Shown here one piece after another: positions 9,425 to 34,700 of a DNA stretch of 49,054 nt. The translations under genes were made by a program, and so were the position numbers. The notes beneath the pieces are model-generated. The model saw only the letters and a program-made list of their open reading frames with translations. It had not been told where the DNA came from and searched no databases. The first letter of the stretch is position 1; every line of letters begins with the position of its first letter. The stretch comes from a virus: positions 1 through 49,054 of the IMG/VR virus record IMGVR_UViG_3300008448_000142; one strand, written 5' to 3'.

Positions 9425-11686
9425 ATGCCACAGCCAATTGATTTAGGCAAATTAAGATTTAGTTACAACGGTGTGTTTGACAATGGCAAACTTTACGAAG
9501 TAAATGATGTTGTTAAATATGGTGGTAGTGCATATGTTTATACAAATAATATTTCAGCATCTGGAAATGTTCCAACTAATGCTACATATTGGGCAAAAAT
9601 GGTTGATGGTGTTCAATACGAAGACGACTGGTCAGCCTCAGCATCATATCAAGTAAATGACGTAGTTAAATATGGTCCACAAACTTATATTGCTTTAACA
9701 GATAACACAAATACAGATCCTTCATTAAATGCAAATGTATGGGATGTATTTACAGGTGGTATGCAATTCGTTGGAGTATGGGCATCAGCCTCACTTTACT
9801 ATCCAAAACAAGTTGTTAGACTTGGTGGATCAACATACATTGCACAATTAAGACATACTTCAGGTTCCTCTTTCTTAGTAGATCATCAAGCAGGAAAGTG
9901 GACACCATTTACATCAGGTTTTGAATACCTAGGCTTATGGACAGCAAACACACCTTATCTTCCAGGAGACATTGTTAACGATGGCGTTTCTGCATTCTTA
10001 GCAATTGGTGAATTTACATCTGGTGAAAACTTTGAAACAGAAAAATTAGATACCTCTAAATGGGAATTGTTTGTACAAGGTGCAGACTACCTTCCTTCAC
10101 AATTAGGTCAAGCAGGAAAAATCTTAACAACAGATGGAGAAAATCCACTTTGGGTTAGAGATGTTGAACTTGGCGAAACAGTTATCTTAGAAAAACTTTT
10201 TGTTGGAGAAACAGCACAAACATTTGAAGCAAGTGCAGCATTAACATCTCCAATAGCAATATTTGGATTAAACTCAGGCGAAGATCCATATGCACAAGTA
10301 TCATTCCAAAACGCAAATCCAGAAGCATCAACAGACGTTATTGTTTATGGAGACACTGGTGATGATACCTCTGGTTGGATGGACATGGGTATTACAGGAA
10401 GTGAATTTGAACAATCAGAATTTGGTATTACAGGACCAGATAACGGATATATTTTCTTCGAAGCACCAGAATCAACAACTGGTACAGGAAATATGGTTAT
10501 TGCAACTGGTGGAAATGGTTCAGAAAACGCAATTGTAATCGCAGCAGGAGGATTTGAGACTGGTAGAAGCCAGATGATTATTCTTCCAGATAATCGTGTA
10601 CATATTGAAATTGCAACAGAATCAACAAACCCAACAAATGGTGCTTTAACAGTTCTTGGTGGTGCAGGTGTACAAGGAAACTTAAACGTATTAGGTAATA
10701 TGGGTATTGAAGGAAATATTAATCTTCAAGGAAATATTACAATCGGTGGTGGACAATTCGTAACTGAAAACCTATCTTCATCAGATCCATTACTATTCGT
10801 AGGTAACGAAAACCCAGGAAATGATTATGACTTAGGATTCATGGCAGAACAAAAACTTCCAAGTGCAAGTGCAAGAGCACTATTTGGTATGCAAAGAATG
10901 ACAGCAAGTGCAGTATTATTAGAAACAAAACAATATGGTGGAAACTTTGTAGAAGTTACTCAAGGTTCACCATCCAATACATGTACAATTACACTTGATG
11001 TAATTCACGCATTGGCAGTTGGAGACTTTGTAGAAGTAAACGGATTAGCAGATACAAATCTAAATGGCGTATTTCAAATAATCGCAAAAACAGATACAAC
11101 AATATCATTTGCTACAAATGTTGCACCATTCTCATTACTATCAGATGCCTCAACAGTTCAATACTATATGTTCCCAGATGCAAGAACAATGGTAGTGGGA
11201 GACGTAGTAACAATTACTGGAGCAAGTGCAGCATTTAACGGATCAAGAAAACTTAAAACAGTTAACGCAAAACAAATAACATTTGCTAAACCAACTGGAA
11301 TTGCAGCATCAGCAACATTGGCAGATAACTATATAACACTTGCTACTGCAACAAGAACTACAAGATCAATTTTCTCAGGCTTAGTTAAAGACCACAATAA
11401 TAATCAATGGTATTTGATGACAGGTCTTGAAGATAAGCCACTAAACGACATTGACATGGATGAGGTTATTTGTGACGTATTAAATGTAGGGTCACTAATA
11501 GCAAAATATGGAGTGAACGTATTTGCTACAGAGGCAGACAGAAATGTCAATATACCTTCCCCAAGTCATGGTACAATGGTTTATGTGCAAGAGAAAAAGG
11601 CACAACAATATTACAGCAGTCAAAATAGATGGGAAAGTATCGAGTTCGATAGTTTCGTATCACCACTTCTGCTGATGGGAGTATAA
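9425..11686 (+). CDS. Large tail fibre protein with carbohydrate-binding-like repeats (753 aa)
   Basis: The first 220 residues hold four repeats of about 50 residues, each with Y-x-V/P-x-D/Q-V-V-x-Y/L-G-x-x-Y-x-A and a closing W. Examples are LYEVNDVVKYGGSAYVYT, YQVNDVVKYGPQTYIALT, YYPKQVVRLGGSTYIAQL and YLPGDIVNDGVSAFLAIG. These resemble chitin-binding-type (CBM5/12-like) modules and probably bind cell surface glycans. A beta-helical shaft with NLNVLGNMGIEGNINLQGN follows. Then come two copies of an H-x-L-x-V-G-D-x-V-x-V domain (about residues 520-640), and a C-terminal domain ending LLLMGV. GGAGG precedes the start. It is a likely main adsorption fibre. Confidence 0.75.
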   Translation: MPQPIDLGKLRFSYNGVFDNGKLYEVNDVVKYGGSAYVYTNNISASGNVPTNATYWAKMVDGVQYEDDWSASASYQVNDVVKYGPQTYIALTDNTNTDPSLNANVWDVFTGGMQFVGVWASASLYYPKQVVRLGGSTYIAQLRHTSGSSFLVDHQAGKWTPFTSGFEYLGLWTANTPYLPGDIVNDGVSAFLAIGEFTSGENFETEKLDTSKWELFVQGADYLPSQLGQAGKILTTDGENPLWVRDVELGETVILEKLFVGETAQTFEASAALTSPIAIFGLNSGEDPYAQVSFQNANPEASTDVIVYGDTGDDTSGWMDMGITGSEFEQSEFGITGPDNGYIFFEAPESTTGTGNMVIATGGNGSENAIVIAAGGFETGRSQMIILPDNRVHIEIATESTNPTNGALTVLGGAGVQGNLNVLGNMGIEGNINLQGNITIGGGQFVTENLSSSDPLLFVGNENPGNDYDLGFMAEQKLPSASARALFGMQRMTASAVLLETKQYGGNFVEVTQGSPSNTCTITLDVIHALAVGDFVEVNGLADTNLNGVFQIIAKTDTTISFATNVAPFSLLSDASTVQYYMFPDARTMVVGDVVTITGASAAFNGSRKLKTVNAKQITFAKPTGIAASATLADNYITLATATRTTRSIFSGLVKDHNNNQWYLMTGLEDKPLNDIDMDEVICDVLNVGSLIAKYGVNVFATEADRNVNIPSPSHGTMVYVQEKKAQQYYSSQNRWESIEFDSFVSPLLLMGV

Positions 11687-12547: not shown

Positions 12548-13651
12548 GTGACCCTCACTAGAAGCAGGTCAGTAAAATCTCTTGCTACATTATTTAATAC
12601 AGCAACTACAAGATATGAAAGAATAGATTTAACATCTAATTACTCATCACCTATTTTTAATAAAGGATCAGGAACTGGTCAAAATGGACACGATGCTGTT
12701 CCTGGAGTAAACTTTGGAGAATGGGTTTTAACACCTAATCAAACTTTTCAAGCAGAAGTAAAAATGTGGGGTGCAGGCGGTGGAGCACACAATCACAGTG
12801 GCTCTGGTGCAGCAGGTGGTGGAGGATATGCAAGATCACAAATAACTTTTTATAAAGATATTCCATATGTAATTTGGGTTGGACAAGGTGGAAGTTATTC
12901 AGATCATCAACATGATGGAAATGGAAATAGAACAAGTCAATGGGAATCTGGTGGATTTGGAAATGGTGGAAACGGTGGTCATAATGCTGGTGGCGGTGGA
13001 GGAATGTCTGCACTATTTTTTAATACAAATGGATCAGAAGGAACACCAGGTGGTCACTTTGGAGCGTTAGAGTCAACCTTTAGAGGACCAGATCAGTCAA
13101 ACGTAATTTTAGTAGCAGGTGGAGGCGGTGGTGCAGGACATCATGGACAGGGACATCATGGTCAAGGTGGTGGTGGTGGTGGACAACATGGTCATCATGG
13201 ACATAATCAAAATCATTCACATCAATATGATGCAGCACATGCTTGGCGTGGAACAAGTGCACCAGGAAGTCCAGGATATAGATTTCATGGAGGATATGGA
13301 GGACCATCATCTTATACAGGTGGTGGCGGTGGAGGATACTGGGGTGGACCAGGTGGAACACATCATTCAAATCATCACAACGGTGGCGGTGGTGGATCGG
13401 GTCACGCATTAGATTTATATTCAGAAAAAGAACATTGGAATAATTGGATTAAAGAAAGATACCCAACACTTGTTAGAAATTCATATTTAGAAATTGCACC
13501 AGGAAATCATCAAAATCATAATCCAAATCCTGCAGCAACAGGAGACTCAGACTTTGTTGGTGGTATTGGTCGTGGTGCTGGTCACGATGCAAGTCATGGT
13601 GTATACCATGGCGGGGGTAACGGAAAAGTTATAATTAGGGTGTTAGGATAG
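12548..13651 (+). CDS. Gly/His-rich adhesin-like protein 1 (367 aa)
   Basis: GTG start at 12548 with AAGGGGGA upstream. The protein has a beta-rich N-terminus, then the key phrase VKMWGAGGG and many long Gly runs with His clusters (GHHGQGHHGQGGGGGG, HHSNHHNGGGGGSGH). The C-terminus ends NGKVIIRVLG. The Gly-run layout resembles the polyglycine-II sandwich of the tip adhesin gp38 of phage S16, in which the Gly helices carry receptor-binding loops. The His density is unusual and suggests metal binding. It is the first of five tandem paralogues and shares with the third (14867) the phrases QTF-x-A-x-VK-WGAGGG and FYKDIPY. Confidence 0.65.
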   Translation: MTLTRSRSVKSLATLFNTATTRYERIDLTSNYSSPIFNKGSGTGQNGHDAVPGVNFGEWVLTPNQTFQAEVKMWGAGGGAHNHSGSGAAGGGGYARSQITFYKDIPYVIWVGQGGSYSDHQHDGNGNRTSQWESGGFGNGGNGGHNAGGGGGMSALFFNTNGSEGTPGGHFGALESTFRGPDQSNVILVAGGGGGAGHHGQGHHGQGGGGGGQHGHHGHNQNHSHQYDAAHAWRGTSAPGSPGYRFHGGYGGPSSYTGGGGGGYWGGPGGTHHSNHHNGGGGGSGHALDLYSEKEHWNNWIKERYPTLVRNSYLEIAPGNHQNHNPNPAATGDSDFVGGIGRGAGHDASHGVYHGGGNGKVIIRVLG

Positions 13652-13655: not shown

Positions 13656-14867
13656 ATGACAAATAATTCATCTAGAAGAAAAATAACAGATAAAAAAGTA
13701 AATTTAGATAGCATAGCCCAATATACTTTATTAAGTCCAAATGGAACTATTTTAAATGAAGAGGTGTCAGAATTTAATGCATATTCTAGAAGTACAACTG
13801 GAACAGGTGGAGAAATATTTAACGTTGGTGGCGGATCACCACACGAATCAGAAACTGAGTTTCAATTAGACTTTGGTGGATATGTTTTAACACCTAAAAA
13901 TGATTTTAATGCTTGGGTTTCAATGTGGGGTGCTGGTGGTGGAGGTTCTGGAGGATCAGGAAGTCAACACGCAGGTGGTGGAGGATTTACAAGAGGTTTG
14001 GTTCAATTTAAAGCAAATATTCCTTACACGGTAGTTATTGGTGAAGGTGGAATGTCTGTTAATAGAAGCACATTTGGTGGTGGAGGTCGTGGACATCATG
14101 GTGGAACAGGTGGAGATGGTGGAGGACTTTCTGGATTGTTTATGAATGTTTCACATAACAGTAAGGCTGCATGGGGACATACAATGAATACACCAGTTAG
14201 AAGAGATCAAGCAATGTTGATTGCAGGCGGTGGTGGAGGAAAAGGTCACACTGGAAACTCTCATCATGGAAATGGTGGAGGTGGAGGTGGTTGGTATGGA
14301 AGACATGGACATAACTCTGGAGCAGGAAATCAATTTTCACCAGGAGGACCTGGATATAATAATAGCCCTGTTGCTGGTGGTGGACATGGATTTCACGGAG
14401 GACACTCTGGATCAAATACATCATGGTTAGGCGGCGGCGGTGGTGGCTGGTATGGTGGCGGCGGTGGAGGTCATACTGCAACACATCATAACGGTGGTTC
14501 TGGTGGATCTGGACATCATGCATTACCAAAAGACTTTGCAGTTATGCCAAATAATGATAAGTTTGAATTTTTAATTACAGCACATACACAACAAGCAGCA
14601 GGACATCATAATTATGGATCACCAAGACCAGCAAACTGGAGAAATCCACTAGGACATACAACAGCAAGAGGTGGTCATGTTGGACGTGGTGGGTATGAAG
14701 TAAATACTGCTAGTGGTTCTAGAAACGGAAAAGTTGTAATTCAACTTGCACCAGGTTATTATGATAATCACAAGAGATTTAGCGATATAAATGCTTCTTC
14801 ATCAGAATGGTCTCATTCTACTCCTTTTAGCAGAGGACAATTTGATGATAATAGGGGTGTTGAATAA
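13656..14867 (+). CDS. Gly/His-rich adhesin-like protein 2 (403 aa)
   Basis: Starts five bases after the previous gene, with AGGATAG upstream. The N-terminal part has GGEIFNVGGG and LTPKNDFNAWVSMWGAGGG, followed by Gly runs with His (GGGRGHHGG, HHGNGGGGGGWYG, THHNGGSGGSGHH) and a C-terminal NGKVVIQLAPG. It belongs to the second subtype of the tandem set, with the genes at 16039 and 17222. That subtype uses FKA-N/G-IPYT where the first subtype uses FYKDIPY. A polyglycine-type tip adhesin role is inferred. The stop codon overlaps the next start codon. Confidence 0.65.
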   Translation: MTNNSSRRKITDKKVNLDSIAQYTLLSPNGTILNEEVSEFNAYSRSTTGTGGEIFNVGGGSPHESETEFQLDFGGYVLTPKNDFNAWVSMWGAGGGGSGGSGSQHAGGGGFTRGLVQFKANIPYTVVIGEGGMSVNRSTFGGGGRGHHGGTGGDGGGLSGLFMNVSHNSKAAWGHTMNTPVRRDQAMLIAGGGGGKGHTGNSHHGNGGGGGGWYGRHGHNSGAGNQFSPGGPGYNNSPVAGGGHGFHGGHSGSNTSWLGGGGGGWYGGGGGGHTATHHNGGSGGSGHHALPKDFAVMPNNDKFEFLITAHTQQAAGHHNYGSPRPANWRNPLGHTTARGGHVGRGGYEVNTASGSRNGKVVIQLAPGYYDNHKRFSDINASSSEWSHSTPFSRGQFDDNRGVE

Positions 14868-16039
14868 TGTCTAATGTAGAAAGAACTAAAACTCAAAATG
14901 TTCAACCAATTGCACATGTTTTAAATGAAGATTTAGCACAATCATATGATGTATTTAATACTGATCAAAATAGAGGAAGAATTTTTGCAAAAGGATTTGG
15001 ACAAACTTCAAGATCATTAGTAGCAGATATGGGTGGTGCTAATGGTGGTCAAGGAGTTAACTTTGGTGGATGGGTAATTGTTCCAAATCAAACTTTTGAT
15101 GCAAATGTTAAAGTATGGGGTGCAGGTGGAGGTTCAAGAGGCCATGATACAGGAAATGCATATGCAGGAGGTGGAGGATTCTCTTCTGGACTAGTTAGAT
15201 TTTATAAAGATATTCCTTATGCAGTTATGGTTGGTCAAGGTGGAGATCATACAACACATAGACATTCTGGAACTGCTCAACGAGGAGTTCATAGACTTGC
15301 AGGAACATTTGGTAATGGAGGTGGCGGTGCACATCATGGTGGTAACGGTGGAGGTATGTCGGGAATATTTTTCAATACTTTTATTAATAACGGAGGCCCA
15401 GGATCAGGTCATGGTGCAGTAGGATCAACTTTTAGAGGTCCAAATAGATCTAATGCTTTAATTATCGCAGGTGGAGGTGGAGGACAAGGTCATCATTCAC
15501 AAGGACATCATGGTGGTGGCGGTGGTGGTGGAGGAACTACTGGAAACAATGGTCATAACGCAGGTGGTGGATCACAAACTGGTGGTGGAGGAAACTGGGC
15601 TTATGGATCACAAGCAGGATATGGATTTCATGGAGGACATGCTGGAGATGCTGGAGATTCAGGTGGTGGCGGTGGTGGATATTATGGTGGAGCAGGTGGA
15701 GCACATCACTCAAGTCATCACAACGGTGGTGGCGGTGGATCAGGACATTTATTAGATGTGCATGCAACATCTGGATATGCAAATTTTTGGATTAAACAAA
15801 GATATCCAGACATAGTTAGAAATGGATCAACTTCAACAGCACCTGGAGTGTATAATAATCATAACGTTTATCCAGGATATCATTCAGACTCAGATTGGAT
15901 GGGTGCAGGACTTGGTGGAGGATCTGCAGGCCAAGATCCTGGACAACAAACTTTTGGTAGAACTGGTCTTGGAAATTATCACACTGGACATAATGGGAGG
16001 GTAGTAATTACTGTAGCAGACAGTAATGTTAATAAATAA
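14867..16039 (+). CDS. Gly/His-rich adhesin-like protein 3 (390 aa)
   Basis: First subtype, like the gene at 12548. It shares GQGVNFGGWVIVPNQTFDANV, WGAGGG and FYKDIPYAVMVGQGG, and a C-terminal FWIKQRYPDIVRNG that matches NWIKERYPTLVRNS of the first copy. His clusters lie between Gly runs (GHHSQGHHGGGGGGGG, AHHSSHHNGGGGGSGH). The start overlaps the previous stop codon by one base. It probably arose by duplication of a two-gene unit (first plus second subtype). Confidence 0.65.
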   Translation: MSNVERTKTQNVQPIAHVLNEDLAQSYDVFNTDQNRGRIFAKGFGQTSRSLVADMGGANGGQGVNFGGWVIVPNQTFDANVKVWGAGGGSRGHDTGNAYAGGGGFSSGLVRFYKDIPYAVMVGQGGDHTTHRHSGTAQRGVHRLAGTFGNGGGGAHHGGNGGGMSGIFFNTFINNGGPGSGHGAVGSTFRGPNRSNALIIAGGGGGQGHHSQGHHGGGGGGGGTTGNNGHNAGGGSQTGGGGNWAYGSQAGYGFHGGHAGDAGDSGGGGGGYYGGAGGAHHSSHHNGGGGGSGHLLDVHATSGYANFWIKQRYPDIVRNGSTSTAPGVYNNHNVYPGYHSDSDWMGAGLGGGSAGQDPGQQTFGRTGLGNYHTGHNGRVVITVADSNVNK

Positions 16040-17208
16040 TGCCTATTCAAAAATTAAAACAAAACTTTGCTGGAATTACATATACCTTGCAACAACCAAA
16101 TGGTAATATAACAAATTTTGAAGTAGATCAAAATACTTGGTATCCATGGAGTAAAACAAAAAGAAAGGGTGAAATATTTAATATTGGTGGTGGAGTTCAG
16201 TTATCAACAAAAAATTATGTTGACAGTGGAGAATTTTGGTTAGACTATGGATCACATGTTTTACGTTCTCAAAATGATTTTACAGCATGGGTACAAATGT
16301 GGGGTGCAGGTGGTGGTGGACAACATCACGAAGGAAACACAACTGCAGGTGGTGGAGGATATTCTCAAGCATTAGTTAAATTTAAAGCAGGCATTCCGTA
16401 TACAATTACAGTTGGCCAAGCAGGAGATCATGGAAATGATACAACTCATGGTGGTGGAGGTCGTGGACATGATGGCGGTGGACAAGGTGGTGGATTATCT
16501 GGTATTTTTATGGGTTCAGAACATTTTGGTAAAACAAGGTGGGGTCACGGAACTCCTCCAGTTACTCAAGCACAAGGATTAATTGTTGCAGGTGGTGGTG
16601 GAGGTAAAGGACATCATTCACAAGGACATCATGGTGCTGGTGGTGCTGGAGGTGGATGGACAGGAAGAACTGGACATAACACTGGTGCAGGTCATCAAAC
16701 ATATGGTGGTCATGGTGGATATAACAATGACGGCGTAGACGGTGGTCGTGGAAAAGCACTTCACGGTGGACACTCATATTCAAGTTCTTGGCAAGGCGGC
16801 GGCGGTGGCGGCTGGTGGGGTGGCGGTGGTGGAGGTCACACTTCAACCCATCACAACGGTGGTGGCGGTGGGTCAGGACATATTGCTTATCCTTCATCAA
16901 TTGGATCACAACCAAATAATGATAAGGCTCAATACATAGTTACTGGACATACCGAAATGGGCGTTGGAGCACATGGTCATCAATTTACTTCACCTGCAAA
17001 TCCTTTTAATCCATTAGCAAAAGGAGACGGAACAACCTTAGCAGGATCAGGTGGTTATGGATTTAGAACAGGTCATGGTCAACATGGTGGAGCATCACAT
17101 GGAAAAGTTGTTATAACACTGGCAAGTGAAAAATTAAATAGTCCAGAATATGAATATCCAGTACATGGTTCTCCACAAGATCCAAATAGTTGGTCTCAAT
17201 CATATTAA
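16039..17208 (+). CDS. Gly/His-rich adhesin-like protein 4 (389 aa)
   Basis: Second subtype. It has KGEIFNIGGG, SQNDFTAWVQMWGAGGG and FKAGIPYTITVGQAGD, with His-bearing Gly runs (GHHSQGHHGAGGAGGG, STHHNGGGGGSGH) and a C-terminal GKVVITLASEKLN. It starts on the last base of the previous stop codon. An N-terminal domain of about 75 residues precedes the Gly region and probably attaches to the fibre or tail. The receptor specificity is unknown. Confidence 0.65.
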   Translation: MPIQKLKQNFAGITYTLQQPNGNITNFEVDQNTWYPWSKTKRKGEIFNIGGGVQLSTKNYVDSGEFWLDYGSHVLRSQNDFTAWVQMWGAGGGGQHHEGNTTAGGGGYSQALVKFKAGIPYTITVGQAGDHGNDTTHGGGGRGHDGGGQGGGLSGIFMGSEHFGKTRWGHGTPPVTQAQGLIVAGGGGGKGHHSQGHHGAGGAGGGWTGRTGHNTGAGHQTYGGHGGYNNDGVDGGRGKALHGGHSYSSSWQGGGGGGWWGGGGGGHTSTHHNGGGGGSGHIAYPSSIGSQPNNDKAQYIVTGHTEMGVGAHGHQFTSPANPFNPLAKGDGTTLAGSGGYGFRTGHGQHGGASHGKVVITLASEKLNSPEYEYPVHGSPQDPNSWSQSY

Positions 17209-17221: not shown

Positions 17222-18229
17222 ATGCAATATAAAATAACAGATTTTAATGGAAATGAAAAAGTAGATACTGTAGAAAATATTGAAGATTGTGTATTTTTTT
17301 ATGGCGGTGGAAATGCTGACACTTCATTTACAACAAATGAACAAAACTTAGGATATGGATCTTTTGTTATAATACCAGAAGAAGATTTTGTTGCATGGGT
17401 AGAATTATATGGTTCAGATGGTGGAACATATGGAACAGATGATAATGAAAATATAGGTGGAATTGGTGGGTATACAAAAGCATTAGTTAAATTTAAAAAA
17501 GATATTAATTATACTGTAGTTATAGGACAAGGTGGAGGATTAAATAATATAAATACCCACGGTGGTGGAGGAAAAGGACATCTATTAGGTGGGTCAGGTG
17601 GAGGATTGTCTGGTTTATTTATAGATACAAATTATTACGGAAAAGAAATGTGGGATGACGATAATATTCCAGTATTAAAAGAAAAAGCGTTATTAATCGC
17701 AGGCGGTGGCGGAGGAAAAGGTGGAACAGATAATAAAACACAATCAATGGGTGGCAATGGTGGAGGTTGGATGGGAACTGGTGCTCATAATTCTGAATCA
17801 ACATTACAACAACGAGATGAAGAAGATACTGTTATAGGAAGAAATGCAAGTAGGAATGGAAATAATGGTGGTGGTGGTGGAGGTTGGCTAGGAGGACTAG
17901 TTAACTTAAACTTATCAGTAAAAAATACTGGAGGAAGTGGTGGTTCGGGGTATATAGTTAGTTCTGGAGATTATAAATCAGAAGTAATAACAGGTATAAC
18001 AAAACCTGGTATAAGTGTTAGAAAAGATATAAATAGAAACATATTGGATCCTAATAAATTTACAATTGTAAGTGGAATAAGAGGAAGACTAGATAATAAT
18101 ATTTATAAAAATATATATTCACCACAAAATGGCAAAGTTATTATTACTTTAGCAGAAGAAGCATTTGATCCCAAATACTACCCACTAGAAATCAAGCCTC
18201 TTGACACATATGATACAATTAACTTATAA
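17222..18229 (+). CDS. Gly-rich adhesin-like protein 5, His-poor (335 aa)
   Basis: AGGAG upstream of ATG 17222. It follows the second subtype (FFYGGGNADTSF, EEDFVAWVELYG, FKKDINYTVVIGQGGG, GGGGGKG, NGKVIITLAEE). However, the conserved WGAGGG is changed to YGSDGG and the His clusters have been replaced by Asn, Asp, Ser and Thr. Its AT content looks higher than in the other four copies. It is either a diverged copy with altered ligand or one decaying after duplication; the reading frame is intact. The end of the gene carries the extended -10 of the halogenase gene. Confidence 0.65.
   Translation: MQYKITDFNGNEKVDTVENIEDCVFFYGGGNADTSFTTNEQNLGYGSFVIIPEEDFVAWVELYGSDGGTYGTDDNENIGGIGGYTKALVKFKKDINYTVVIGQGGGLNNINTHGGGGKGHLLGGSGGGLSGLFIDTNYYGKEMWDDDNIPVLKEKALLIAGGGGGKGGTDNKTQSMGGNGGGWMGTGAHNSESTLQQRDEEDTVIGRNASRNGNNGGGGGGWLGGLVNLNLSVKNTGGSGGSGYIVSSGDYKSEVITGITKPGISVRKDINRNILDPNKFTIVSGIRGRLDNNIYKNIYSPQNGKVIITLAEEAFDPKYYPLEIKPLDTYDTINL
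18211..18219 (+). promoter_or_regulatory. Extended -10 for the halogenase gene
   Basis: TGATACAAT inside the end of the preceding coding region, 27 bases before ATG 18246. A TTGACA (18201-18206) is present but only seven bases away from the -10 hexamer, too close to act as its -35. Confidence 0.45.
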
Positions 18230-18245: not shown

Positions 18246-19889
18246 ATGAAAATCAATAAAATTGTTATTGTTGGTGGTGGATCCGCTGGATGGATGACTG
18301 CAGCAACCTTAATTAGAAAATTTCCTAAAGGCAAAAATATTAGCGTTATTGAACCATCTGATATAGATATAGTTGGAGTCGGAGAAAGCACCCTAGGCGG
18401 CATTCGTAGGTGGACTAGATGGATAGGTGTAGACGAAAAAGATTTTTTCCCAACATGTGATGCATCAATCAAAATGAGTATTAAATTTACAGACTTTTAC
18501 AAAAAAGACTCAGGTGGATTTCATTATCCATTTGGTAAGCCATTATTGGATGGTCCAAACCCTTCATTTAATATGTGGCACTATAAAAAATATCTATTTC
18601 CAGAAACACCAGTTCAAGACTTTACAAGATGTTTATTTCCAGCAGAAGCATTATATGAAAACAATAGATTTAATTTAAACTTCTTTGAAGACTTTGATAA
18701 TTTTGATCCAAATCAAGATGTAGCATATCATTTTGATGCTAAAAAATTTGGTTACTGGTTAAAAGAACATTATTGTATTCCAAAGGGTGTAATGCATATA
18801 GATGGGTCAGTAAAGAATGTAGTCACAAACGAAGATGGCGTTGACTATTTAGAACTGTCTAATGGAAGCACTGTATATGCAGATCTATTTATAGATTGCA
18901 CAGGTTTTAGAAGCGTGCTATTAGGTGATGCACTTAAAGAACCGTTTGAGTCATATGAAGAAATGCTACCTAATAATAGAGCATGGGCAACTAGAATCCC
19001 TTATAAAGAAAAAGCAAAGGAACTGCAACCATATACAAATTCAACAGCAATAGATACAGGATGGTGTTGGAATATTCCATCATGGGAAAGATTAGGTGCT
19101 GGATATGTATATTCAGATAAGTTTGCTACACCAGAAAAAGCATTGGAACAATTTAAAAACTACCTAATGTCAGATAAAATGACTATTCCAAGAACAAAGG
19201 AAGAAGTAGATGAGTTAGAATTTAGAGATATTAAAATGCGTGTAGGTATTCATAGTAGAACATTTGTTAAGAATGTTGTAGCAATTGGATTATCAGCAGG
19301 ATTTATTGAACCACTAGAAAGTAATGGGCTATATACAGTTCATGAGTTCTTATTTAAATTGATGGATGCATTAGGAAGAGATGAAACTATATCTCAGTTT
19401 GATAGAGATATGTATAACTCAAGCACTAGAACAATGTATGATGGCTTTGCTAAATTTGTTGCTTTACACTACGCATTGTCACATAGAGATGATACAGAAT
19501 ATTGGAGAGCAATATCTAAAAAACAATTTACAGATAGAGGCGATGAAATGAATACGCCTTATTTAGAAAAAGCACCAGGATTTTGGGACATGGCAATTAG
19601 ATACCTAGATAACTGGGGACACCCAATAGGTCAGGCTGGAATTACATATATTGCAACTGGAATGAATGTACCTATGGTAAATGAACAAAGGTATCTACAA
19701 GTTCAATATGAAGAAAAAGATACAGACATATATCAAAGAGTAGTAAAGCAATGTGAGGTATGGGAAGAAAGAAAGGCTAAATGGTATAGAAATGCCATGA
19801 ACTCTCCAACAGTAGAGCAATACCTTTATAACTTCTTCTATAAACCAAAAGAAGATGCTAAGACTATAAATTCACAATTTGAATTATAA
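18246..19889 (+). CDS. Flavin-dependent (tryptophan-type) halogenase (547 aa)
   Basis: FAD-dependent enzyme that makes hypohalous acid and halogenates an aromatic or other electron-rich substrate through an active-site lysine. Seen here: the dinucleotide-binding GGGSAG (residues 10-15) and VGVGESTLGG (43-52). The likely catalytic lysine is K76 in ASIKMSIKF, matching K79 of PrnA. The halogenase signature W-x-W-x-I-P is present as WCWNIP (273-278). FIEPLESNG (353-361) has E358-S359 matching E346-S347 of PrnA. The length is normal. Such genes occur in marine cyanophages, where VirX1 of phage Syn10 was shown to iodinate many substrates. Substrate and halide here are unknown. The ribosome binding site is AAAAGAG. 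Confidence 0.9.
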   Translation: MKINKIVIVGGGSAGWMTAATLIRKFPKGKNISVIEPSDIDIVGVGESTLGGIRRWTRWIGVDEKDFFPTCDASIKMSIKFTDFYKKDSGGFHYPFGKPLLDGPNPSFNMWHYKKYLFPETPVQDFTRCLFPAEALYENNRFNLNFFEDFDNFDPNQDVAYHFDAKKFGYWLKEHYCIPKGVMHIDGSVKNVVTNEDGVDYLELSNGSTVYADLFIDCTGFRSVLLGDALKEPFESYEEMLPNNRAWATRIPYKEKAKELQPYTNSTAIDTGWCWNIPSWERLGAGYVYSDKFATPEKALEQFKNYLMSDKMTIPRTKEEVDELEFRDIKMRVGIHSRTFVKNVVAIGLSAGFIEPLESNGLYTVHEFLFKLMDALGRDETISQFDRDMYNSSTRTMYDGFAKFVALHYALSHRDDTEYWRAISKKQFTDRGDEMNTPYLEKAPGFWDMAIRYLDNWGHPIGQAGITYIATGMNVPMVNEQRYLQVQYEEKDTDIYQRVVKQCEVWEERKAKWYRNAMNSPTVEQYLYNFFYKPKEDAKTINSQFEL

Positions 19890-19907
19890 TATAGTATGTG
19901 CTATAAT
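19879..19907 (+). promoter_or_regulatory. Promoter with extended -10 and fair -35
   Basis: TTGAAT (19879-19884), a 17-base spacer and TATAAT (19902-19907), the latter preceded by TGC to give an extended -10. It begins in the end of the halogenase gene and drives the three genes from 19925. Confidence 0.65.
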
Positions 19908-19924
19908 TCTACAAGGAGATAAAA

Positions 19925-20458
19925 ATGGCCGAAGATATAGAAAATCAAGTACAATCAACAATGCCTATTGTTGGATTAGAAAACGTTGATCCAATGCTTT
20001 ACCCTACAGAGGTAGCAATAGATCCAAATTTAAGAAATTTTGCAAAAGTTAGAAGACTTAGCAATCAAGTTGTAGGATTCTTAACATATCAAGAAGGAAC
20101 AACTAATAATGTTTTACCAGAAGATAACGATCACTTTTACTGGTTAGAATTTACACAAACTGCACACAATAAAGCAGCAATGCCTGGAAATCCATCAGCA
20201 CCAGAAATTGAAATTAAAGCATACGTTGATGGTCAACCAGTTGGTTTAATGGATGATTTTCAGGTGGGTGTAGTTTGGGAACCAACAGTTAAAAAATTCT
20301 TACCTAAGATTGATTTTGGTGACATGAGTAGAGAATTCTTTGTGTTTGATTACAACACATGGCAATGGAAATCTCCTCTATTTGAAGGTGGAAAGATGTT
20401 AATTTGGAATCCACTAAATAGAGAATACGAAGAATACGTATACAGTAACCCACAGTAA
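19925..20458 (+). CDS. Hypothetical protein after the halogenase (177 aa)
   Basis: AAGGAG before the ATG. The product is acidic and beta-rich with aromatic phrases (DNDHFYWLEFTQ, VVWEPTVKKFLPKIDFGD, YNTWQWKSPLF). No Cys, signal peptide or known motif is visible. It heads a three-gene unit with the two paralogues at 20468 and 21207, nine bases before the first of them. The EPTVKKFLPK phrase and its position suggest a virion accessory protein, but I do not recognise the family. Confidence 0.6.
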   Translation: MAEDIENQVQSTMPIVGLENVDPMLYPTEVAIDPNLRNFAKVRRLSNQVVGFLTYQEGTTNNVLPEDNDHFYWLEFTQTAHNKAAMPGNPSAPEIEIKAYVDGQPVGLMDDFQVGVVWEPTVKKFLPKIDFGDMSREFFVFDYNTWQWKSPLFEGGKMLIWNPLNREYEEYVYSNPQ

Positions 20459-20467
20459 GCATAATAC

Positions 20468-21214
20468 ATGCCAATACTAGAGTCGTTTCCTATTTTAAAA
20501 GAAATTGATGGAATTATAAATCCACCACAAGCAGCACAAAAATTTATTCCTGATTGGTATAAATCACTAGATATACATATATACGGACAAACAAAAACAA
20601 CAGTTCATCCAGACATACCATCAGAAAGTAATTTTACAGTAAAAGGATGTTCGTCTTTTTTTGACGCATTGACACATGGATATATTTATACACTTCCAGC
20701 AGATATAGAGTTTGAAGGACTTCCTGCTGGTAAGTTAAAAGTTCAAATGAATGTTCATGAAGATTTTGTAGTTAAAATGCTTAATGGTCCAGCAGATAAA
20801 TCAATAGTAAACTCTCTTCCAGTAGGCAAAGAATTTTATGAACATCTATTAATGTGGAGTTTTGATTTTTCATTAAAAACACCTAAAGGATATAGTATTC
20901 TTTTTTGCCATCCTCTTAATAGATTTGAACTGCCATTTCAAACATTTAGCGGGGTAGTTGAAACTGATGAATATAGTCAGGCTATACACTTTCCATTCTA
21001 TATAAAGAAACTAGATGCTGGTGAAAAAATAATGCTTAAAAAAGGAACTCCTATAGTTCAAATAATCCCATTTAAAAGAGAGCATTGGAAGATAGAAAAT
21101 AAACCATTTTCTCAAAAGGTATATGATTTTATAATGAAACAAAATTTTCAATTAAAGTCAATTATAGGAAGATCTTATAAACTACAATGGTGGAAAAGAA
21201 AAAAATATGAATAA
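20468..21214 (+). CDS. Conserved phage protein, paralogue pair member 1 (248 aa)
   Basis: The N-terminus has FIPDWYKSL, then KGCSSFFDALTHGY, a central GYSILFCHPLNRFELPFQTFSG, GVVETDEYSQAIHFPF, and a C-terminal GTPIVQIIPFKREHWK. The same landmarks run through the next gene. I associate this family (I believe DUF6065-like) with T4-like cyanophages and some bacteria, where its function is not known. The conserved His-Pro-Leu-Asn-Arg and the G-x-P-I-x-Q-x-x-PFKR phrase hint at a metal or small-molecule site in a beta barrel. It overlaps the next gene by eight bases. Enzymatic or structural role unresolved. Confidence 0.65.
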   Translation: MPILESFPILKEIDGIINPPQAAQKFIPDWYKSLDIHIYGQTKTTVHPDIPSESNFTVKGCSSFFDALTHGYIYTLPADIEFEGLPAGKLKVQMNVHEDFVVKMLNGPADKSIVNSLPVGKEFYEHLLMWSFDFSLKTPKGYSILFCHPLNRFELPFQTFSGVVETDEYSQAIHFPFYIKKLDAGEKIMLKKGTPIVQIIPFKREHWKIENKPFSQKVYDFIMKQNFQLKSIIGRSYKLQWWKRKKYE

Positions 21215-21932
21215 AATAACATTTAGACCGATGACGCAGGCTGTAACTAATTTTTCAGTGGCTCCAGTTCCAGCAAAACAAGCCTTGCCCCAATGGTATA
21301 AAGAGGCCTCTCCGTATGTTTATGATGAAAAAGAGATAGGTATGCACCCCAATCCAAATGCTGGTATATCAAACGCCACTATAAAGGCATGTGTTCCATT
21401 TTTAGATGCAATGACCACTGGCTACATGATTACCTTGGTATCAGATATAGAATTAAGAAAAACAGACAAGAAAGAGATATTAATTAGATGGAGTCAGCCA
21501 TACTTAAATATGGTAGAAGGTCATCATCCAGATCAAATAGAAACTTTACCATTTGAAAATGGTGAATTTAAAACTATATCAAAATGGTTGTTTGATTGGA
21601 AAATAGAAACACCACCTGGATATAGTTGTTTGTATACTCACCCAATTAATAGGCATGACCTACCATTCAGAACCTTCTCTGGTGTAGTTGATACAGATAC
21701 GTTTCCAGATGCAGTTCATTTTCCTTTTAGTATTTTAAATTTTGAAGGAGACAGAAAGATTATTCCTATGGGAACTCCAATCTGTCAAGTATTTCCATTT
21801 AAGAGAGATGAGTGGCAATCTGAGGTATTACCACTTGAGCCATACTTAAAAGAAAAGGCTACCTTTAGCATATTAAAAGTAATCGGTAGATCCTATAAAA
21901 GACAATTTTGGCATAAAAAGACCTATAATTAA
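21207..21932 (+). CDS. Conserved phage protein, paralogue pair member 2 (241 aa)
   Basis: Paralogue of the preceding gene with the same order of landmarks: LPQWYKEAS, KACVPFLDAMTTGY, GYSCLYTHPINRHDLPFRTF, GVVDTDTFPDAVHFPF and GTPICQVFPFKRDEW, ending in a shared GRSYKRQFW (GRSYKLQWW in the first). The tandem pair and the eight-base overlap suggest that the two products work together, perhaps as a heteromer. It ends just before the extended -10 at 21942. The function is unknown. Confidence 0.65.
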   Translation: MNKITFRPMTQAVTNFSVAPVPAKQALPQWYKEASPYVYDEKEIGMHPNPNAGISNATIKACVPFLDAMTTGYMITLVSDIELRKTDKKEILIRWSQPYLNMVEGHHPDQIETLPFENGEFKTISKWLFDWKIETPPGYSCLYTHPINRHDLPFRTFSGVVDTDTFPDAVHFPFSILNFEGDRKIIPMGTPICQVFPFKRDEWQSEVLPLEPYLKEKATFSILKVIGRSYKRQFWHKKTYN

Positions 21933-21968: not shown

Positions 21969-22316
21969 ATGGCATTTCCTGCTACATATAATTTTAACTA
22001 CTATAGAGGAGATAGTTACTCCTTTTCAATTACCCCTAAAAATGCAAATGGCACAACATTTGATTTAACTGGGTACTCAGCATCTTTTAACATTGCTACA
22101 GCCAGAGGATCTTCTGGAGTATTCGTTACAGATGGCTCAGCAACTATAGATACAATTAACGGAAGAGTTGATTGTGCTATTACACCAACAGTTGGTGTAG
22201 AACTAGGATTAACAACATACTACTATGATGTAGAAATTACTAAGAACGATAAAGTCTATACAGTAGTTACAGGAACAATCAATGTAACACAAGACATAAC
22301 TGGTGCTGGTGCCTAA
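21969..22316 (+). CDS. Phage beta-sandwich protein, cassette copy 2 (115 aa)
   Basis: Same layout as the genes at 4306 and 23312: NYYRGDSYSFSITP at the start, DLTGYSASFNIATARGSS in the middle, YYYDVEITKNDKVYTVVTG and INVTQDIT at the end. It is clearly closer to the copy at 23312 than to that at 4306. The stop codon overlaps the next start (TAATG). It is a probable tail-tip or fibre attachment protein. Confidence 0.65.
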   Translation: MAFPATYNFNYYRGDSYSFSITPKNANGTTFDLTGYSASFNIATARGSSGVFVTDGSATIDTINGRVDCAITPTVGVELGLTTYYYDVEITKNDKVYTVVTGTINVTQDITGAGA

Positions 22317-23287
22317 TGCCAGTAGTAGACCTAGGTAGTGCTTCAGTAACTATATTCGGTCCACCAGAAATAATCTCTGTCTCAGTAGAACGTGGCACAA
22401 AAGGTGACACAGGAACACGTGGCAGCGTAATATACAGTGGAACAGCAAATCCTCAAGACGCAGACTTCTCATCACTTCCTCCAGCAGTAAGAGATTTATA
22501 CATCAAGACTTTGGCGGGTAGCGATAATTATGGATCAATATTTCAATATAGATTAGTACTAGGTAATTTTGTATGGGTAGAAATTGTAGACTGGAATGAT
22601 ATTGTAAATCAATTCTTCCAAGATAATCCAGATTATTTATTAGATTATGTATCTGACTTTGAAGCAAATACTACATATTTAAAAATTAATACAGCAGCAT
22701 CTACATACCTTACACTAGCCTCAGCATCCTCAACATATGTTCCTCAATCAAATTATTCATATCAAAATATTCCAGTATCTGTTTATGAAAATATTCCAAG
22801 TCTTCCAAATCCAGAAAATCATATTGGAAAATTATATTTAGTAAGATCTGAGTCATCTATTTATTATGGATACCAAGGTGCTTCTGGTGGTGCTGTGTGG
22901 TTTAGAATGCTTCATACAGAAGAAGCAAACGAAACATACGTAACACAGATTAACGCCGCAGAGACATACGTTCCACAAGCACAAGAAGTAGAAACTTCCG
23001 CAAGCACAACATACGTTATTCAAGGGTCAGACAGATCAAAGGTAAAACTTTTTGACAATTCTAACAATATATCTGTTATAGTTCCAAATGCTGGAAGTGC
23101 AACGTTTCCAATAGGAACAAAAATAGATTTAATACAGGTTGGACAAGGTCAGGTTACAGTATCTGGTGCAGTTGGAGTAACTGTAAACGGAAACCCAGGA
23201 ACAAGATTAAATGGTCAATGGGCACAAGGTTCAATAATTAAAACAGCAGCAAACACGTGGGTAATATATGGAAACCTATCCTCGTGA
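22316..23287 (+). CDS. Fibre-type protein with collagen-like stretch, cassette copy 2 (323 aa)
   Basis: A beta-rich head (VDLGSASVTIFGPPEIISVSV), then a collagen-like stretch (RGTKGDTGTRG) and the phrase VIYSGTANPQ, followed by a longer fibre part. That part includes repeated A-x-T-Y-L/V segments (AASTYLTLASASSTYVPQ, NETYVTQINAAETYVPQ) that look like short coiled shafts, and a tip domain (NISVIVPNAGSATFPIGTKI, GAVGVTVNGNPG) of a common fibre type. It is translationally coupled to the beta-sandwich gene. It is the longest of the three cassette second genes. Likely role: side fibre. Confidence 0.65.
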   Translation: MPVVDLGSASVTIFGPPEIISVSVERGTKGDTGTRGSVIYSGTANPQDADFSSLPPAVRDLYIKTLAGSDNYGSIFQYRLVLGNFVWVEIVDWNDIVNQFFQDNPDYLLDYVSDFEANTTYLKINTAASTYLTLASASSTYVPQSNYSYQNIPVSVYENIPSLPNPENHIGKLYLVRSESSIYYGYQGASGGAVWFRMLHTEEANETYVTQINAAETYVPQAQEVETSASTTYVIQGSDRSKVKLFDNSNNISVIVPNAGSATFPIGTKIDLIQVGQGQVTVSGAVGVTVNGNPGTRLNGQWAQGSIIKTAANTWVIYGNLSS

Positions 23288-23293
23288 TACAAT
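23285..23293 (+). promoter_or_regulatory. Extended -10 before cassette copy 3
   Basis: TGATACAAT begins with the stop codon of the previous gene and lies 18 bases before ATG 23312. No -35 is evident. Confidence 0.5.
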
Positions 23294-23311
23294 TAAAAGG
23301 GTGATTAAATA

Positions 23312-23656
23312 ATGCCATTTCCAGTATCATACGATATAAACTATTATCAGGGTGACACCTACGAATTACTTTTGCAACCAAAAGATTCTTCTGGTGCAGC
23401 AATGAACCTTACAGGCTATGCTGGGCTATTTACAGTATCAACAGCACGTGGAGATTCAGGAATTACAGTAGCAAGCGGAACGGTAACAGTATCAAGCGGA
23501 TCAAATATATTTTGCACATTAGCAGCGTCTGCTGGAAATAATTTATTAGCAAGTTCATATGTTTACGACATTCAACTATCAAGTGGATCAACAGTATACA
23601 CACTGTTAACTGGCAACGTTAATGTTACTCAAAATATTAAAGAAGCATTAACATAA
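23312..23656 (+). CDS. Phage beta-sandwich protein, cassette copy 3 (114 aa)
   Basis: Close paralogue of the gene at 21969: NYYQGDTYELLLQPKD, NLTGYAGLFTVSTARGDS, YVYDIQLSSGSTVYTLLTG and NVNVTQNI occupy the same positions. AGGGTGAT serves as ribosome binding site. Together with the next gene it forms the third copy of the cassette. It is a likely virion component that attaches or organises the partner fibre. Confidence 0.65.
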   Translation: MPFPVSYDINYYQGDTYELLLQPKDSSGAAMNLTGYAGLFTVSTARGDSGITVASGTVTVSSGSNIFCTLAASAGNNLLASSYVYDIQLSSGSTVYTLLTGNVNVTQNIKEALT

Positions 23657-23665
23657 GAGGTCACC

Positions 23666-24241
23666 ATGGCTATTAACCTAATTGTTCAAGACGATAACCT
23701 AACAGTATACGGTCCACCACAATCACTAGAATTAGCAGTTGACATTGGGCCAAAGGGTGATAAGGGAAACAAAATATATTCTGGCCCTGGAAATCCAAAT
23801 ACTAACAGTGGATTATTTATTAATGACCCAGCCTCAATATCAGATATCTTTATTAGAAATGATTTAGGAGCAGATTATGGGGTTGTATATCAATATAGGT
23901 CAGTTCCAGGTGGAAACGAATGGCAGTCAGTTCTTAAATTTCAACCAATTACATATTCAGAAATAATTGATGTTCCATTTACTTCGGGATCAGCCTCATT
24001 CTTAATTCCATTAACATCTTTATATGTTGATGCACCATTAAACTTAACAGCAGAAAATATATCAATCCAACTTACACCAAAGCATACAGCACCAGTTGCT
24101 ATAACGATTTCAAACAAATTAGTGACCTCTGGAACCAGTAGATCTCTACAAGTATCGCTTATTGGAAAAGAACTATCTGGATCAGTCACAAATCTAAGTG
24201 GAACAGTATCAATTAATGTTAGTTTAAGCATAGTGATATAA
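23666..24241 (+). CDS. Fibre-type protein with collagen-like stretch, cassette copy 3 (191 aa)
   Basis: Begins with the same head as the gene at 22316 (LTVYGPPQSLELAVDI), the collagen-like GPKGDKG, the phrase KIYSGPGNPN, and DIFIRNDLGADYGVVYQYR (compare DLYIKTLAGSDNYGSIFQYR). It then replaces the fibre tail by a different beta domain of about 90 residues (LTAENISIQLTPKHTAPVAI, VSLIGKELSGSV). Thus the cassette keeps its head and swaps its tip. The ribosome binding site is AGAGGT. Confidence 0.65.
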   Translation: MAINLIVQDDNLTVYGPPQSLELAVDIGPKGDKGNKIYSGPGNPNTNSGLFINDPASISDIFIRNDLGADYGVVYQYRSVPGGNEWQSVLKFQPITYSEIIDVPFTSGSASFLIPLTSLYVDAPLNLTAENISIQLTPKHTAPVAITISNKLVTSGTSRSLQVSLIGKELSGSVTNLSGTVSINVSLSIVI

Positions 24242-27745: not shown

Positions 27746-28837
27746 ATGTCCCAACCAACAATTTGCTTCTTAACATACGATTGGGCTTTTGGAACAAACC
27801 CACTACAACCAAATGGATGTGCTTGGTATAGGTGCATGTTACCAATGAAAGAATTAGAAAAGCATGGATGGGCCACTGGCATTGGATTTCCTGCATTTGC
27901 TCCAGAACATGGCTTTGGATTATTAATCCCAGACTCAAAAGCAATACATGGTTGGGAAATTGTAGTTCTTAAATTAATGATGCTTGATAGATTTGTTGAA
28001 GAAATTCCAAAAGCACAAGCATTAGGTCAAAAAATAGTTATAGATATTGATGATCATCATGCTGGACTAGAAAAAACCAATATGGCATATACAGCAACAG
28101 ATCCAAAAGTTAACCCTAAAAATAATAGAGAACACTATTTTAAAACTATGGATATGGCAGATGCCTTGATCACATCAACCCCTTTCTTAGAACAATACTA
28201 TAAAAAGAAATATCCAGACAAGCCAATATTTATGGTTAGAAATGCAGTTGACCCACAATACTTTAAATTTAGAAAAGATAAGTCAGACAACTGGCCAGTC
28301 CTTGGTTGGGTAGGGGCTACACCATGGCGTTCAAACGATCTAGAAACCCTTAATCCCTTTGTAGGAGAATTCTTAAATGATAAGAAGTGGCGTTTTCATC
28401 ATTCTGGGCATATCTTAAATGCACCTACTGTAGAAGAACAGTTGGGGGTACCTCATAATTTATTTACATCAGAACCAATGCAACCAATATTAACATATGG
28501 AGAAATGTTTAAAAGAATAGATATTGGAATTGTTCCTTTGAATAATGTTGAATTTAATCTTGCAAAATCTTTTATTAAAGGTTTAGAATACAGTGCAGCA
28601 GGAGTGCCTTGGATCGCTACAGACCTTGAGGAATACTCATATATCAATAAAGAATTTGGTATAGGAAGGGTTGCCTCTACTAAGGATGAATGGTTGGGTC
28701 ATCTAGAAGAATTATCAAATGTAAAAGTAAGAAATAAAGAACGTCAAAAGAATATGGAATTAGTAAGGCAGTTCCATACTATGGAAAAACGTGGTCCTGA
28801 ATGGGATCGTGTTTATAAAGAAATACTGGCTATTTAA
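27746..28837 (+). CDS. GT-B glycosyltransferase (363 aa)
   Basis: Two-domain layout of GT4-like glycosyltransferases. The N-terminal half has NGCAWYRCMLP, QKIVIDIDDHHAG and ADALITSTPFLEQYY, ending in VRNAVDPQYF. The C-terminal half starts PVLGWVGATPWRSNDLE, and the nucleotide-sugar-binding region reads DIGIVPL-x-x-VEFN-x-AKSFIKGLEYSAAGVPWIATDL. Such enzymes move a sugar from a nucleotide-sugar to an acceptor in the cytoplasm. In a phage, targets could be virion proteins, DNA or host surface polymers. The place among fibre genes suggests fibre glycosylation, but this is inferred. It converges with the lytic gene, the two ends overlapping by four bases. Confidence 0.8.
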   Translation: MSQPTICFLTYDWAFGTNPLQPNGCAWYRCMLPMKELEKHGWATGIGFPAFAPEHGFGLLIPDSKAIHGWEIVVLKLMMLDRFVEEIPKAQALGQKIVIDIDDHHAGLEKTNMAYTATDPKVNPKNNREHYFKTMDMADALITSTPFLEQYYKKKYPDKPIFMVRNAVDPQYFKFRKDKSDNWPVLGWVGATPWRSNDLETLNPFVGEFLNDKKWRFHHSGHILNAPTVEEQLGVPHNLFTSEPMQPILTYGEMFKRIDIGIVPLNNVEFNLAKSFIKGLEYSAAGVPWIATDLEEYSYINKEFGIGRVASTKDEWLGHLEELSNVKVRNKERQKNMELVRQFHTMEKRGPEWDRVYKEILAI

Positions 28838-31716: not shown

Positions 31717-34700
31717 ATGACCCATATAATTTCTAATCTATACGCTTCTAAAATATTTGCTGAACACCCAGTAGCATTATGGGCATTGGATGATGAAGCA
31801 TATAATCCATCACTATTTACAGTTCAACAAAAGAGCATATCAAGCCTATCAATAGAAGACTTTGCAGAATGGGTATCGGCATCTAGTATCACTACAACCT
31901 CAGCACCTCTACCAGAAGAATCATCTGCAGTTCTTTCTAGAACAGACATTAATGAAAATTTTGTAACAATAAATGGACCAATAGTTAGTGCAAGTGCTCT
32001 AGATCCAACTAAGCCAACAGTGTGCTTAAATACTTTTGTTTATGCCATAAGTACACTTACTGACTACTACGAGTTAGGAATTTTATATGGACTTTCTGGA
32101 TCAGCAACACATTATGACAAGATAGACGTAAACGCTCTAGGAATAACAGCATGGCAAAAACTTCAATTTACTTCCATAATTCCAAATAATGCACAAACAA
32201 TTCAACCAATTATAAAAGTTAAATACATAGATGGTGCAACAATAGAAGAGTATGATATCTGGTTTAATGCACTATCACTTGGTCAATGGTCAGAAGAGTT
32301 TAACTGGGAAACAACTGGTAATATTCTTGACGAACTAACAGACAATGACTTAATAGATCTACTTCCAGATACTAATTATAAAGTTATGACAGCAGATGCA
32401 TATGGCTTTGATGATCAATACAACGGCTATTACATAGTTGATAACTCTAAACCGCTATCAATAAACACAAGTATGCCCATGGTGTATGGATCTGGAAACA
32501 TAACTCATATAGAAGCCCCAATTACATCAGGAATGCCAGGGCTAGTTATACCAGGCAAAGGATTTTTAAATGAATCAGGAAGATATCAAAATAGAACTTT
32601 TGAATTTTGGCTAAGAACATATAGTGACATGCATCAAGAATTTAGAATAATGGGACCACTTGCATCTACAGATGGCTTGTATATAAATCAAGAATACTTA
32701 GTTTTAAAAATAGGCAAAAATAAAAAATCATACTTTATTGGAAAATGGTTTAGACCAATGCTAATTGATATTAAATATAGTCAGAATTTAGCAACCATAT
32801 TATTAAATGGAGAAGAAGTTCTCTCTATGGATATAGATCAGGACTATACAAACTTTCCACTGTCTAATCAAGATTGGATAGGATTCTTTGGACACTCAGA
32901 CCTACACCCATACGATATAGACTGCATTGCTATTTATCCATATCTAGTTCCAGCAGAAGTTGCCAAAAGAAGATTCGTGTATGGTCAAGGAGTAATAGGA
33001 TCTGAAATTATAGTTAATAACTTTGACGGCAACTCTTTATATGTTGACTTCCCATTTGCAAACTATGCTGCCACCATGAACTATCCAGAAACAACAACAT
33101 GGAATTCGGGGTATTTTAATAATTTAAATGTAACATCTAAATACATAGCAATGCCAGAATACGAATTACCAGAATTACTACATACTGAAGATATAGGTGA
33201 TTTAGACATATATGCTGATAACTATGCAATACAGGCTGGAAGTGCTACATTCTTTAAGTTTAGACCAGATGAAGAAGAATATACTCAAAACTCATATTTA
33301 TATTTTAATAACATAGCCAAACTATCCTCGCCAACAAAGTCAATATTTGGAATATTTGAAACTACAGATCCTTTAATAAATACTAAAAAAACTATTATGA
33401 AATTTACTAATGCTGCAAATAACAATATATTTGAAGTAGCCCTAAATAGTTCAAGTATTCAATACCTATATAACGAAGACCTAGTTCACTCAGCATCCAC
33501 ATCTGCTTCACAGTACTTTATGGTTGGCTTAGACCTAGACAAGATAACATCAAGCGGATTAGTTGGAAACTTCTTCTCTAATCCACAAAACGTATCTCTA
33601 AGCGTAGGTGGGGACGGAACCAATACATTTACAGGAAAAATATTTAACGTTACCATGAACAATAAGTTCTTTACAGACAAAGATACAACAGAGTGGTTTA
33701 CAGATAATGGATTTATAGACTACGATCCAAATGTAGACCCAACAGTATTGCAATACATAGGATGCTACACATTTAGGCCAGATAGATCAAGTCCAGTAGT
33801 TTACTTTGATATAGCGTCTTCTGGTTATTGGGAAAACTCTATGCCACTTTCATACTTTGGCAAATACATCACAGACAAGTTTGGCAATTCTTACTACGAC
33901 CTAGACATGATTCAGTTTAATATTGACTACTCTTCAAATCCAATAGTTAATATTCCACAACATCAAAATAGTCAGTTTGAAAATCACGCATTGAAGTCTT
34001 ATATAACACTACAGCACTATTCCCAAGTAGGAAAAATACCTTATTCACAATACTCAAATGTAGATCAAAATACAAACCCTAGGGTAGTTGACTTTGATAA
34101 CAGCCTAGACGTAATATCTACAAAGTTTGAAGTAGTTGACGGATCTGTTATATTCCCACCAAAAGAACTAATTGACTTTGAAGAATACTACATAACAGTT
34201 CACTTAGAAGTTAAATCTACTGGCATACAAACTTATCCTACAGCAATTCCTAGCATGTCTTTGAGTTCAGTAGTTCATAACGATACAGAGTTCTTTGCAA
34301 TCAATACAAAGACTGGAAACAAAATATATCCAGTGGTCAAGTATGGAAATGTATATTCACATAAATCAAAGAATCCTTTTAGAATATATAAAGACTCAAC
34401 ACCATACCTATACCTAACAGGTGACTCAGGAATTCAGTGTATGACACAGGGAGAAGTTGGGGTAGTTAAGGGATTCTCAATACCTATCAATAGTCAGAAG
34501 TCATCTGAGTATATTTTTGGCGGTATGCAATTATGGCTTATGTATAATCAAAATGAATATATATCAGAACCAAAGAAACTAGGAAGAATCATAACTCCCA
34601 ATAAAGAACTAGATATCTTCTTAATTCCAGAAGTATCTGGAAATGCTAAAAGAGGATTTATAAAGGTATATGACTCAGAAACTGGATATGAAGATATAAC

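Follow-up and report, generated by a model that had tools for sequence, protein, structure and literature searches.

A VirX1-like halogenase in a viral tail-fibre operon, its recurrent neighbours and a possible role in modifying glycine-rich adhesins

Gene content of the halogenase locus

The window analysed here, the single IMG/VR virus record IMGVR_UViG_3300008448_000142 of 49,054 bases, carries a gene for a flavin-dependent halogenase inside a tail-fibre operon, in which five glycine-rich genes (12548–18229) are followed by the halogenase, an orphan of 177 amino acids (aa), two paralogous DUF6065 genes and BppU/tail-fibre genes. The whole run lies on the plus strand and is close-packed; around the halogenase, the orphan and the two paralogues, neighbouring genes overlap or are 9 to 36 bases apart:

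12548..13651, plus strand: glycine-rich adhesin-like protein 1 (367 aa, 25% Gly, 8.2% His)
13656..14867, plus strand: glycine-rich adhesin-like protein 2 (403 aa, 24% Gly, 6.5% His; ALK_LTK_GRD)
14867..16039, plus strand: glycine-rich adhesin-like protein 3 (390 aa, 28% Gly, 6.7% His)
16039..17208, plus strand: glycine-rich adhesin-like protein 4 (389 aa, 26% Gly, 7.2% His; ALK_LTK_GRD)
17222..18229, plus strand: glycine-rich adhesin-like protein 5 (335 aa, 0.9% His; ALK_LTK_GRD, 5.9e-19)
18246..19889, plus strand: flavin-dependent halogenase, VirX1-like (547 aa, intact motifs)
19925..20458, plus strand: 177-aa orphan (60–61% identity to its nearest kin, conserved there only)
20468..21214, plus strand: DUF6065/phrog_7084 paralogue A (248 aa, putative dUTPase-fold family)
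21207..21932, plus strand: DUF6065/phrog_7084 paralogue B (241 aa; the protein used for the structure model)
21969..24241, plus strand: BppU_N-like and tail-fibre-type genes, which close the cassette

A preliminary description of this DNA had seen a complete flavin-dependent halogenase, an unknown protein and two paralogues as one unit (18246–21932) in a fibre/adhesin setting, and both the unit and its setting between ALK_LTK_GRD-type glycine-rich genes and BppU_N/tail-fibre-type genes were confirmed. The halogenase matched the Pfam family Trp_halogenase (5.8e-100, 335.7 bits against a cut-off of 21) and the PHROG tryptophan halogenase (6.8e-142), and its nearest solved relative was VirX1 of cyanophage Syn10 (PDB 6qgm, 6e-93). 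It is indeed complete in its flavin and catalytic motifs, namely GGGSAG (10–15), Lys76, WCWNIP (273–278) and PLESNG (356–361, with Glu358), and K76, E358, W273, W275, I277 and P278 were invariant among 13 viral halogenase sequences. Judged by its sequence, the protein is a fresh member of an already known family. In a tree of 61 rows, the viral halogenases, including VirX1, stood apart from the cellular ones with the exception of L177 (see below), with a support of 81/99 that is not decisive; the viral side held 45 rows, made up of 34 from viral contigs, 10 from phage isolates and L177, and the window was sister to the viral contig L002 (support 100/100). A single-sequence search of bacterial genomes with the window halogenase returned no matches, and an alignment-based search of bacterial genomes recovered bacterial halogenases, mostly at 30–38% identity.

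The Syn10 locus resembles the window in its halogenase motifs, in the glycine-rich fibre genes 5' of the halogenase and in DUF6065 3' of it; it differs in that the halogenases share 38% identity (window protein against its Syn10 genome match) and in that two halogenases stand in tandem in Syn10, with 2-oxoglutarate (2OG)-Fe(II) oxygenases further 3'; the window has neither the tandem pair nor the oxygenases.

All three of the five window glycine-rich proteins that were tested matched ALK_LTK_GRD (5.9e-19, 2.5e-8 and 5.9e-7). The paralogues are 18–45% alike with two closer pairs (1/3 and 2/4), a pattern that suggests a tandem array arisen by pairwise duplication. We regard these genes as putative tail-fibre adhesins, which may form a trimeric receptor-binding tip. 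Pam3 gp24, S16 gp38 and the hafunavirus adhesins likewise have an ALK-like glycine-rich domain and a fibre locus; the literature consulted mentions no modifying enzyme for them. The glycine-rich adhesin of hafunaviruses, which sets host range (PMC9608196, PMC8651126), also has DUF6065 close by, as the window genes do. When two of the window glycine-rich proteins were compared by sequence with solved structures, neither a fibre nor any other entry was matched.

Neighbours of viral halogenases

Gene neighbourhoods were surveyed in 80 loci on viral contigs and 80 bacterial halogenase loci, with portal and ribonucleotide reductase genes as control baits; neighbour families were called by profile models and a simple glycine-content rule. 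Dereplication at 80% identity gave 19 viral halogenase loci with at least 4 kilobases (kb) on either side, and genes within 5 kb were compared with a control set of 531 genes (one-sided binomial p values). The statistics of this survey, and those on composition below, ignore phylogeny and use thresholds set in this analysis. A glycine-rich protein lay within 5 kb of the halogenase in 10 of the 19 loci (control 11.1%, p = 1e-5), a 2OG-Fe(II) oxygenase in 11 (control 9.4%, p = 2e-7) and DUF6065 also in 11 (control 12.6%, p = 4e-6), and 17 of the 19 had at least one of these three neighbours. Among the bacterial halogenase loci, DUF6065 was found in 0/80 and a 2OG oxygenase in 2/80. Representatives of the oxygenases were confirmed as 2OG-FeII_Oxy_3 and 2OG-FeII_Oxy_5; none was found in the 49-kb fragment that forms the window.

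The order of glycine-rich genes, one or two halogenases, DUF6065 immediately 3' of the halogenase and several 2OG oxygenases was shared by the cyanophage isolates Syn10, S-RIM44, S-CREM1 and P-TIM40, and glycine-rich genes occurred with a halogenase and oxygenases in S-WAM1, S-SZBM1, P-RSM6 and Sf-CH11. The module was seen in several phage groups: in freshwater contigs, in eight Kyanoviridae isolates and in the viral-looking L177. The latter (positions 1–11048), filed under a Dehalococcoidia metagenome-assembled genome, has a glycine-rich protein, three 2OG oxygenases, the halogenase, three more oxygenases and tail-like genes, and its neighbouring genes make it look viral.

A survey of this kind had been called for in the preliminary description, which proposed that the neighbours of the halogenase are its partners. 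The two DUF6065 paralogues are conserved halogenase companions, with the family near 11 of the 19 viral halogenases, so that the outcome named there as refuting the idea, a lack of conservation of the companions, did not arise for them. The idea is not supported for the 177-aa protein, which had no family match, no match among phages and relatives in three close-kin contigs only, and which was for this reason rejected as a general halogenase partner; its AlphaFold model, built from two sequences, was uninformative (predicted local distance difference test score, pLDDT, 38).

The window DUF6065 paralogues A and B, both phrog_7084/DUF6065-like, are 35% identical. An AlphaFold model from a 37-member alignment (pLDDT 92, predicted template modelling score 0.87) supplies a predicted fold for the family: the top 50 PDB matches were all dUTPase/dCTP deaminase entries or their complexes, with a best Foldseek value of 7.5e-4 and, by VIA-align, Z of about 10 over about 117–130 residues in most rows (root mean square deviation 3–6). 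A profile search of the PDB returned three dUTPases only, below significance (E 0.2), aligned exactly at the GVVDTD...GTPxxQ segment; the likeness to this superfamily lies in the predicted fold and in these two aligning stretches. The Asp of dUTPase motif III and the Gln of motif IV were kept in the 37 DUF6065 sequences (D162 and Q194 conserved in 90% or more, D164 without exception), whereas the consensus lacks motif II (PRS) and the C-terminal glycine-rich motif V that dUTPases have, and because of these absences DUF6065 was not filed as a dUTPase enzyme and an ordinary dUTPase role was dropped. We read DUF6065 as a dUTPase-fold family with a different function, given the model and the partly kept motifs. 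A literature search on DUF6065 found no paper.

Some further arrangements were seen among the surveyed loci. In HJTV-2 and HF2 (L088 and L089), which infect haloarchaea, DUF6065 lies about 1 kb or less from a glycine-rich adhesin in loci without a halogenase; in such viruses this adhesin decides host range (PMC8651126). A family of about 137 aa (C8), for which no Pfam match was found, adjoins a glycine-rich gene on the same strand in seven loci (L004, L015, L024, L027, L030, L063 and L076) and is a candidate adhesin chaperone by its position. Epimerase-like, cupin-like and sugar-nucleotide-type genes accompany the halogenase in L065, L071 and L079, which have no glycine-rich gene, and in L021 and L036 genes of sulfotransferase-like, peroxiredoxin-like and AhpD-like type come after the halogenase.

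Histidine in glycine-rich proteins and possible fibre modification

Four of the five window glycine-rich proteins contain 6.5–8.2% His, in contexts such as HHGGGG; GGGGGGWYG also occurs. Across loci, glycine-rich proteins encoded no more than 6 kb from a halogenase had a median His content of 2.63% against 0.41% elsewhere (p = 1.5e-11), and Trp and Tyr were modestly raised (p = 0.007 and 0.005, respectively); taken over the comparisons made, the His medians were 2.3–2.6% beside halogenases and 0.4–0.6% otherwise. Under a stricter glycine-rich definition, at least 2% His was found in 34 of the 61 encoded near a halogenase, in 0 of 19 near DUF6065 or 2OG oxygenases only and in 2 of 27 near none of them; per locus, a glycine-rich protein with at least 1.5% His was present in 19/26 with a halogenase versus 4/33 (p = 2e-6). 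All eight halogenase-positive cyanophages had a glycine-rich fibre-locus gene with at least 2.2% His, and the strongly glycine-rich protein of the homologous fibre locus in the halogenase-free S-SM1 and S-SSM5 had 0.6–1.0%. A search for halogenases hidden in other parts of the 27 records whose loci lack one, many of which carry glycine-rich genes, found none, although these records are fragments.

Synteny and composition suggest that viral halogenases of this type modify fibres, and we lean towards a reading in which the window cassette builds and matures the receptor-binding tip of the tail fibre by halogenating His, Trp or Tyr of the glycine-rich adhesins. The halogenase would draw on O2, halide and reduced flavin, the last probably supplied by a host reductase, to attach Cl, Br or I to exposed aromatic side chains of the adjacent adhesins, most likely His and also Trp or Tyr, during or before adhesin folding. 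In many other phages the 2OG-Fe(II) oxygenases of the cassette may add hydroxyl groups. The dUTPase-fold DUF6065 protein could be a binding or presenting partner beside the halogenase, or a second modifying activity, and the benefit may be adhesion, protease resistance or altered receptor specificity. The preliminary description had raised the idea that fibre Trp or Tyr is halogenated; modification as such gains indirect support from the recurrent glycine-rich and 2OG neighbours and the His enrichment, but the strongest compositional signal falls on His. With somewhat less than even confidence we extend the proposal to a portable virion-maturation cassette, present in several tailed-phage groups, that would halogenate and hydroxylate His, Trp and Tyr of glycine-rich tips.

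Related flavoproteins offer analogies for peptide or protein substrates. The halogenases of ribosomally synthesized and post-translationally modified peptides, SrpI and MibH, modify Trp residues in peptides (PMC10858898), and the MibH structure (5uao) was among the PDB matches of the window halogenase; like the enzyme of our proposal they are flavin-dependent with a ribosomal peptide as substrate, and they differ in that their substrates are short precursor peptides and not, as envisaged here, a large fibre protein. In the window, the halogenase has fibre genes larger than such peptides as its neighbours. QhpG, a peptidyl-Trp dihydroxylase with a protein substrate (PMC7876137), has a related flavoprotein fold (weak match, 1.6e-9) but carries out hydroxylation in a single turnover, and the window protein scored 37 against a family cut-off of 240 bits. 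VirX1 itself has a large and accessible active site that accepts bulky substrates (PMC8407142).

Several observations weigh against fibre modification. The glycine-rich gene adjoining the window halogenase is His-poor (0.9%), and the halogenase-free S-RIM12, Syn19, S-RIM2 and S-H25 have a 464-aa protein with 16% Gly and 1.9–2.8% His. Lineage explains part of the His signal, because halogenase loci also have more His in their background (2.04% versus 1.32%), which is itself partly due to the halogenases being His-rich. The loci L021 and L056 lack all three partner types, the S-B64 halogenase lies among replication genes and that of HTVC008M beside a terminase, and the CP21 halogenase, on a long branch and with no partner, is an exception to the cassette order. 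Since fibre regions are recombination hot spots, neighbours can also accumulate there without joint action.

Among the alternatives, an auxiliary metabolic gene, whose enzyme halogenates a host metabolite in free form, be it Trp, a signal or a toxin, and which lies among fibre genes by accident, appears unlikely, yet survives best: cyanophage halogenases are usually classed in this way (PMC10452541), VirX1 takes many small aromatics in vitro (PMC8407142), and the sulfotransferase/peroxiredoxin (L021/L036) and epimerase/cupin (L065, L071, L079) contexts would suit it, whereas a glycine-rich, 2OG or DUF6065 neighbour in all but two of the dereplicated loci, the lack of a recurring biosynthetic gene set in fibre-linked loci and the His enrichment would be left unexplained or argue against it. 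It is rather improbable that His in the glycine-rich fibres serves metal binding while the oxygenases or the halogenase have other target residues or leave the fibre untouched. His is the strongest compositional signal, and the Gly- and His-rich jaw proteins of Nereis both bind Zn and have been described as halogenated (PMC13120676), among them Nvjp-1, an extracellular structural protein of an animal and an analogy only; the enrichment, however, tracks the halogenase and not DUF6065 or 2OG neighbours alone, and Trp and Tyr are raised as well. Still less probable is a halogenase that works on the host's cell surface or glycan receptor, or that labels the infected cell to bar superinfection, which could account for the clustering with receptor-binding genes and for the glycosyltransferase at 27746–28837 but not for the co-occurrence of 2OG oxygenases and the His-rich fibres; a secretion signal was not apparent in the enzyme (without a dedicated tool being run), and the cytoplasm suits reduced-flavin chemistry. 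That the halogenase is random cargo of a hypervariable fibre region, whose neighbours do vary among loci, is very improbable given that one small set of families turns up again and again, at rates far above those at control genes, and that the order of halogenase then DUF6065 is fixed in distant phages.

The survey names one concrete candidate substrate for viral halogenases, the adjacent Gly/His-rich fibre tip, which occurs in isolated phages (Syn10, S-CREM1, S-WAM1 and P-TIM40) and is therefore testable in virions. A literature search for a halogenase together with a phage tail fibre found no paper, and the cassette and its candidate substrate appear to be undescribed in the literature searched. 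Fibre modification would also offer a role for many cyanophage 2OG oxygenases, which have so far been explained by metabolism (PMC3037559). If the proposal is true, phages tune host attachment through enzymatic chemistry on their own adhesins, a post-translational chemistry without description in the literature searched, and possess halogenases for folded or folding proteins.

Other genes of the window

Outside the cassette, the following features were recorded:

1912..2643, plus strand: distant third DUF6065-like gene
3224..3547, plus strand: small C3-family protein; elsewhere, a member of this family accompanies the halogenase at 5 kb or less in 25/80 loci
9425..11686, plus strand: tail fibre protein (CBM_5_12-like match)
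27746..28837: glycosyltransferase (PHROG, 1.3e-29), just 3' of the fibre region
31717..35181: open reading frame of 1154 aa, for which PHROG comparison gave no family

The nearest relatives of the window major capsid protein (up to 41%) and ribonucleotide reductase (62%) were found in Streptomyces phages, so that the virus is likely actinophage-like, in line with the probable actinophage of the preliminary description.

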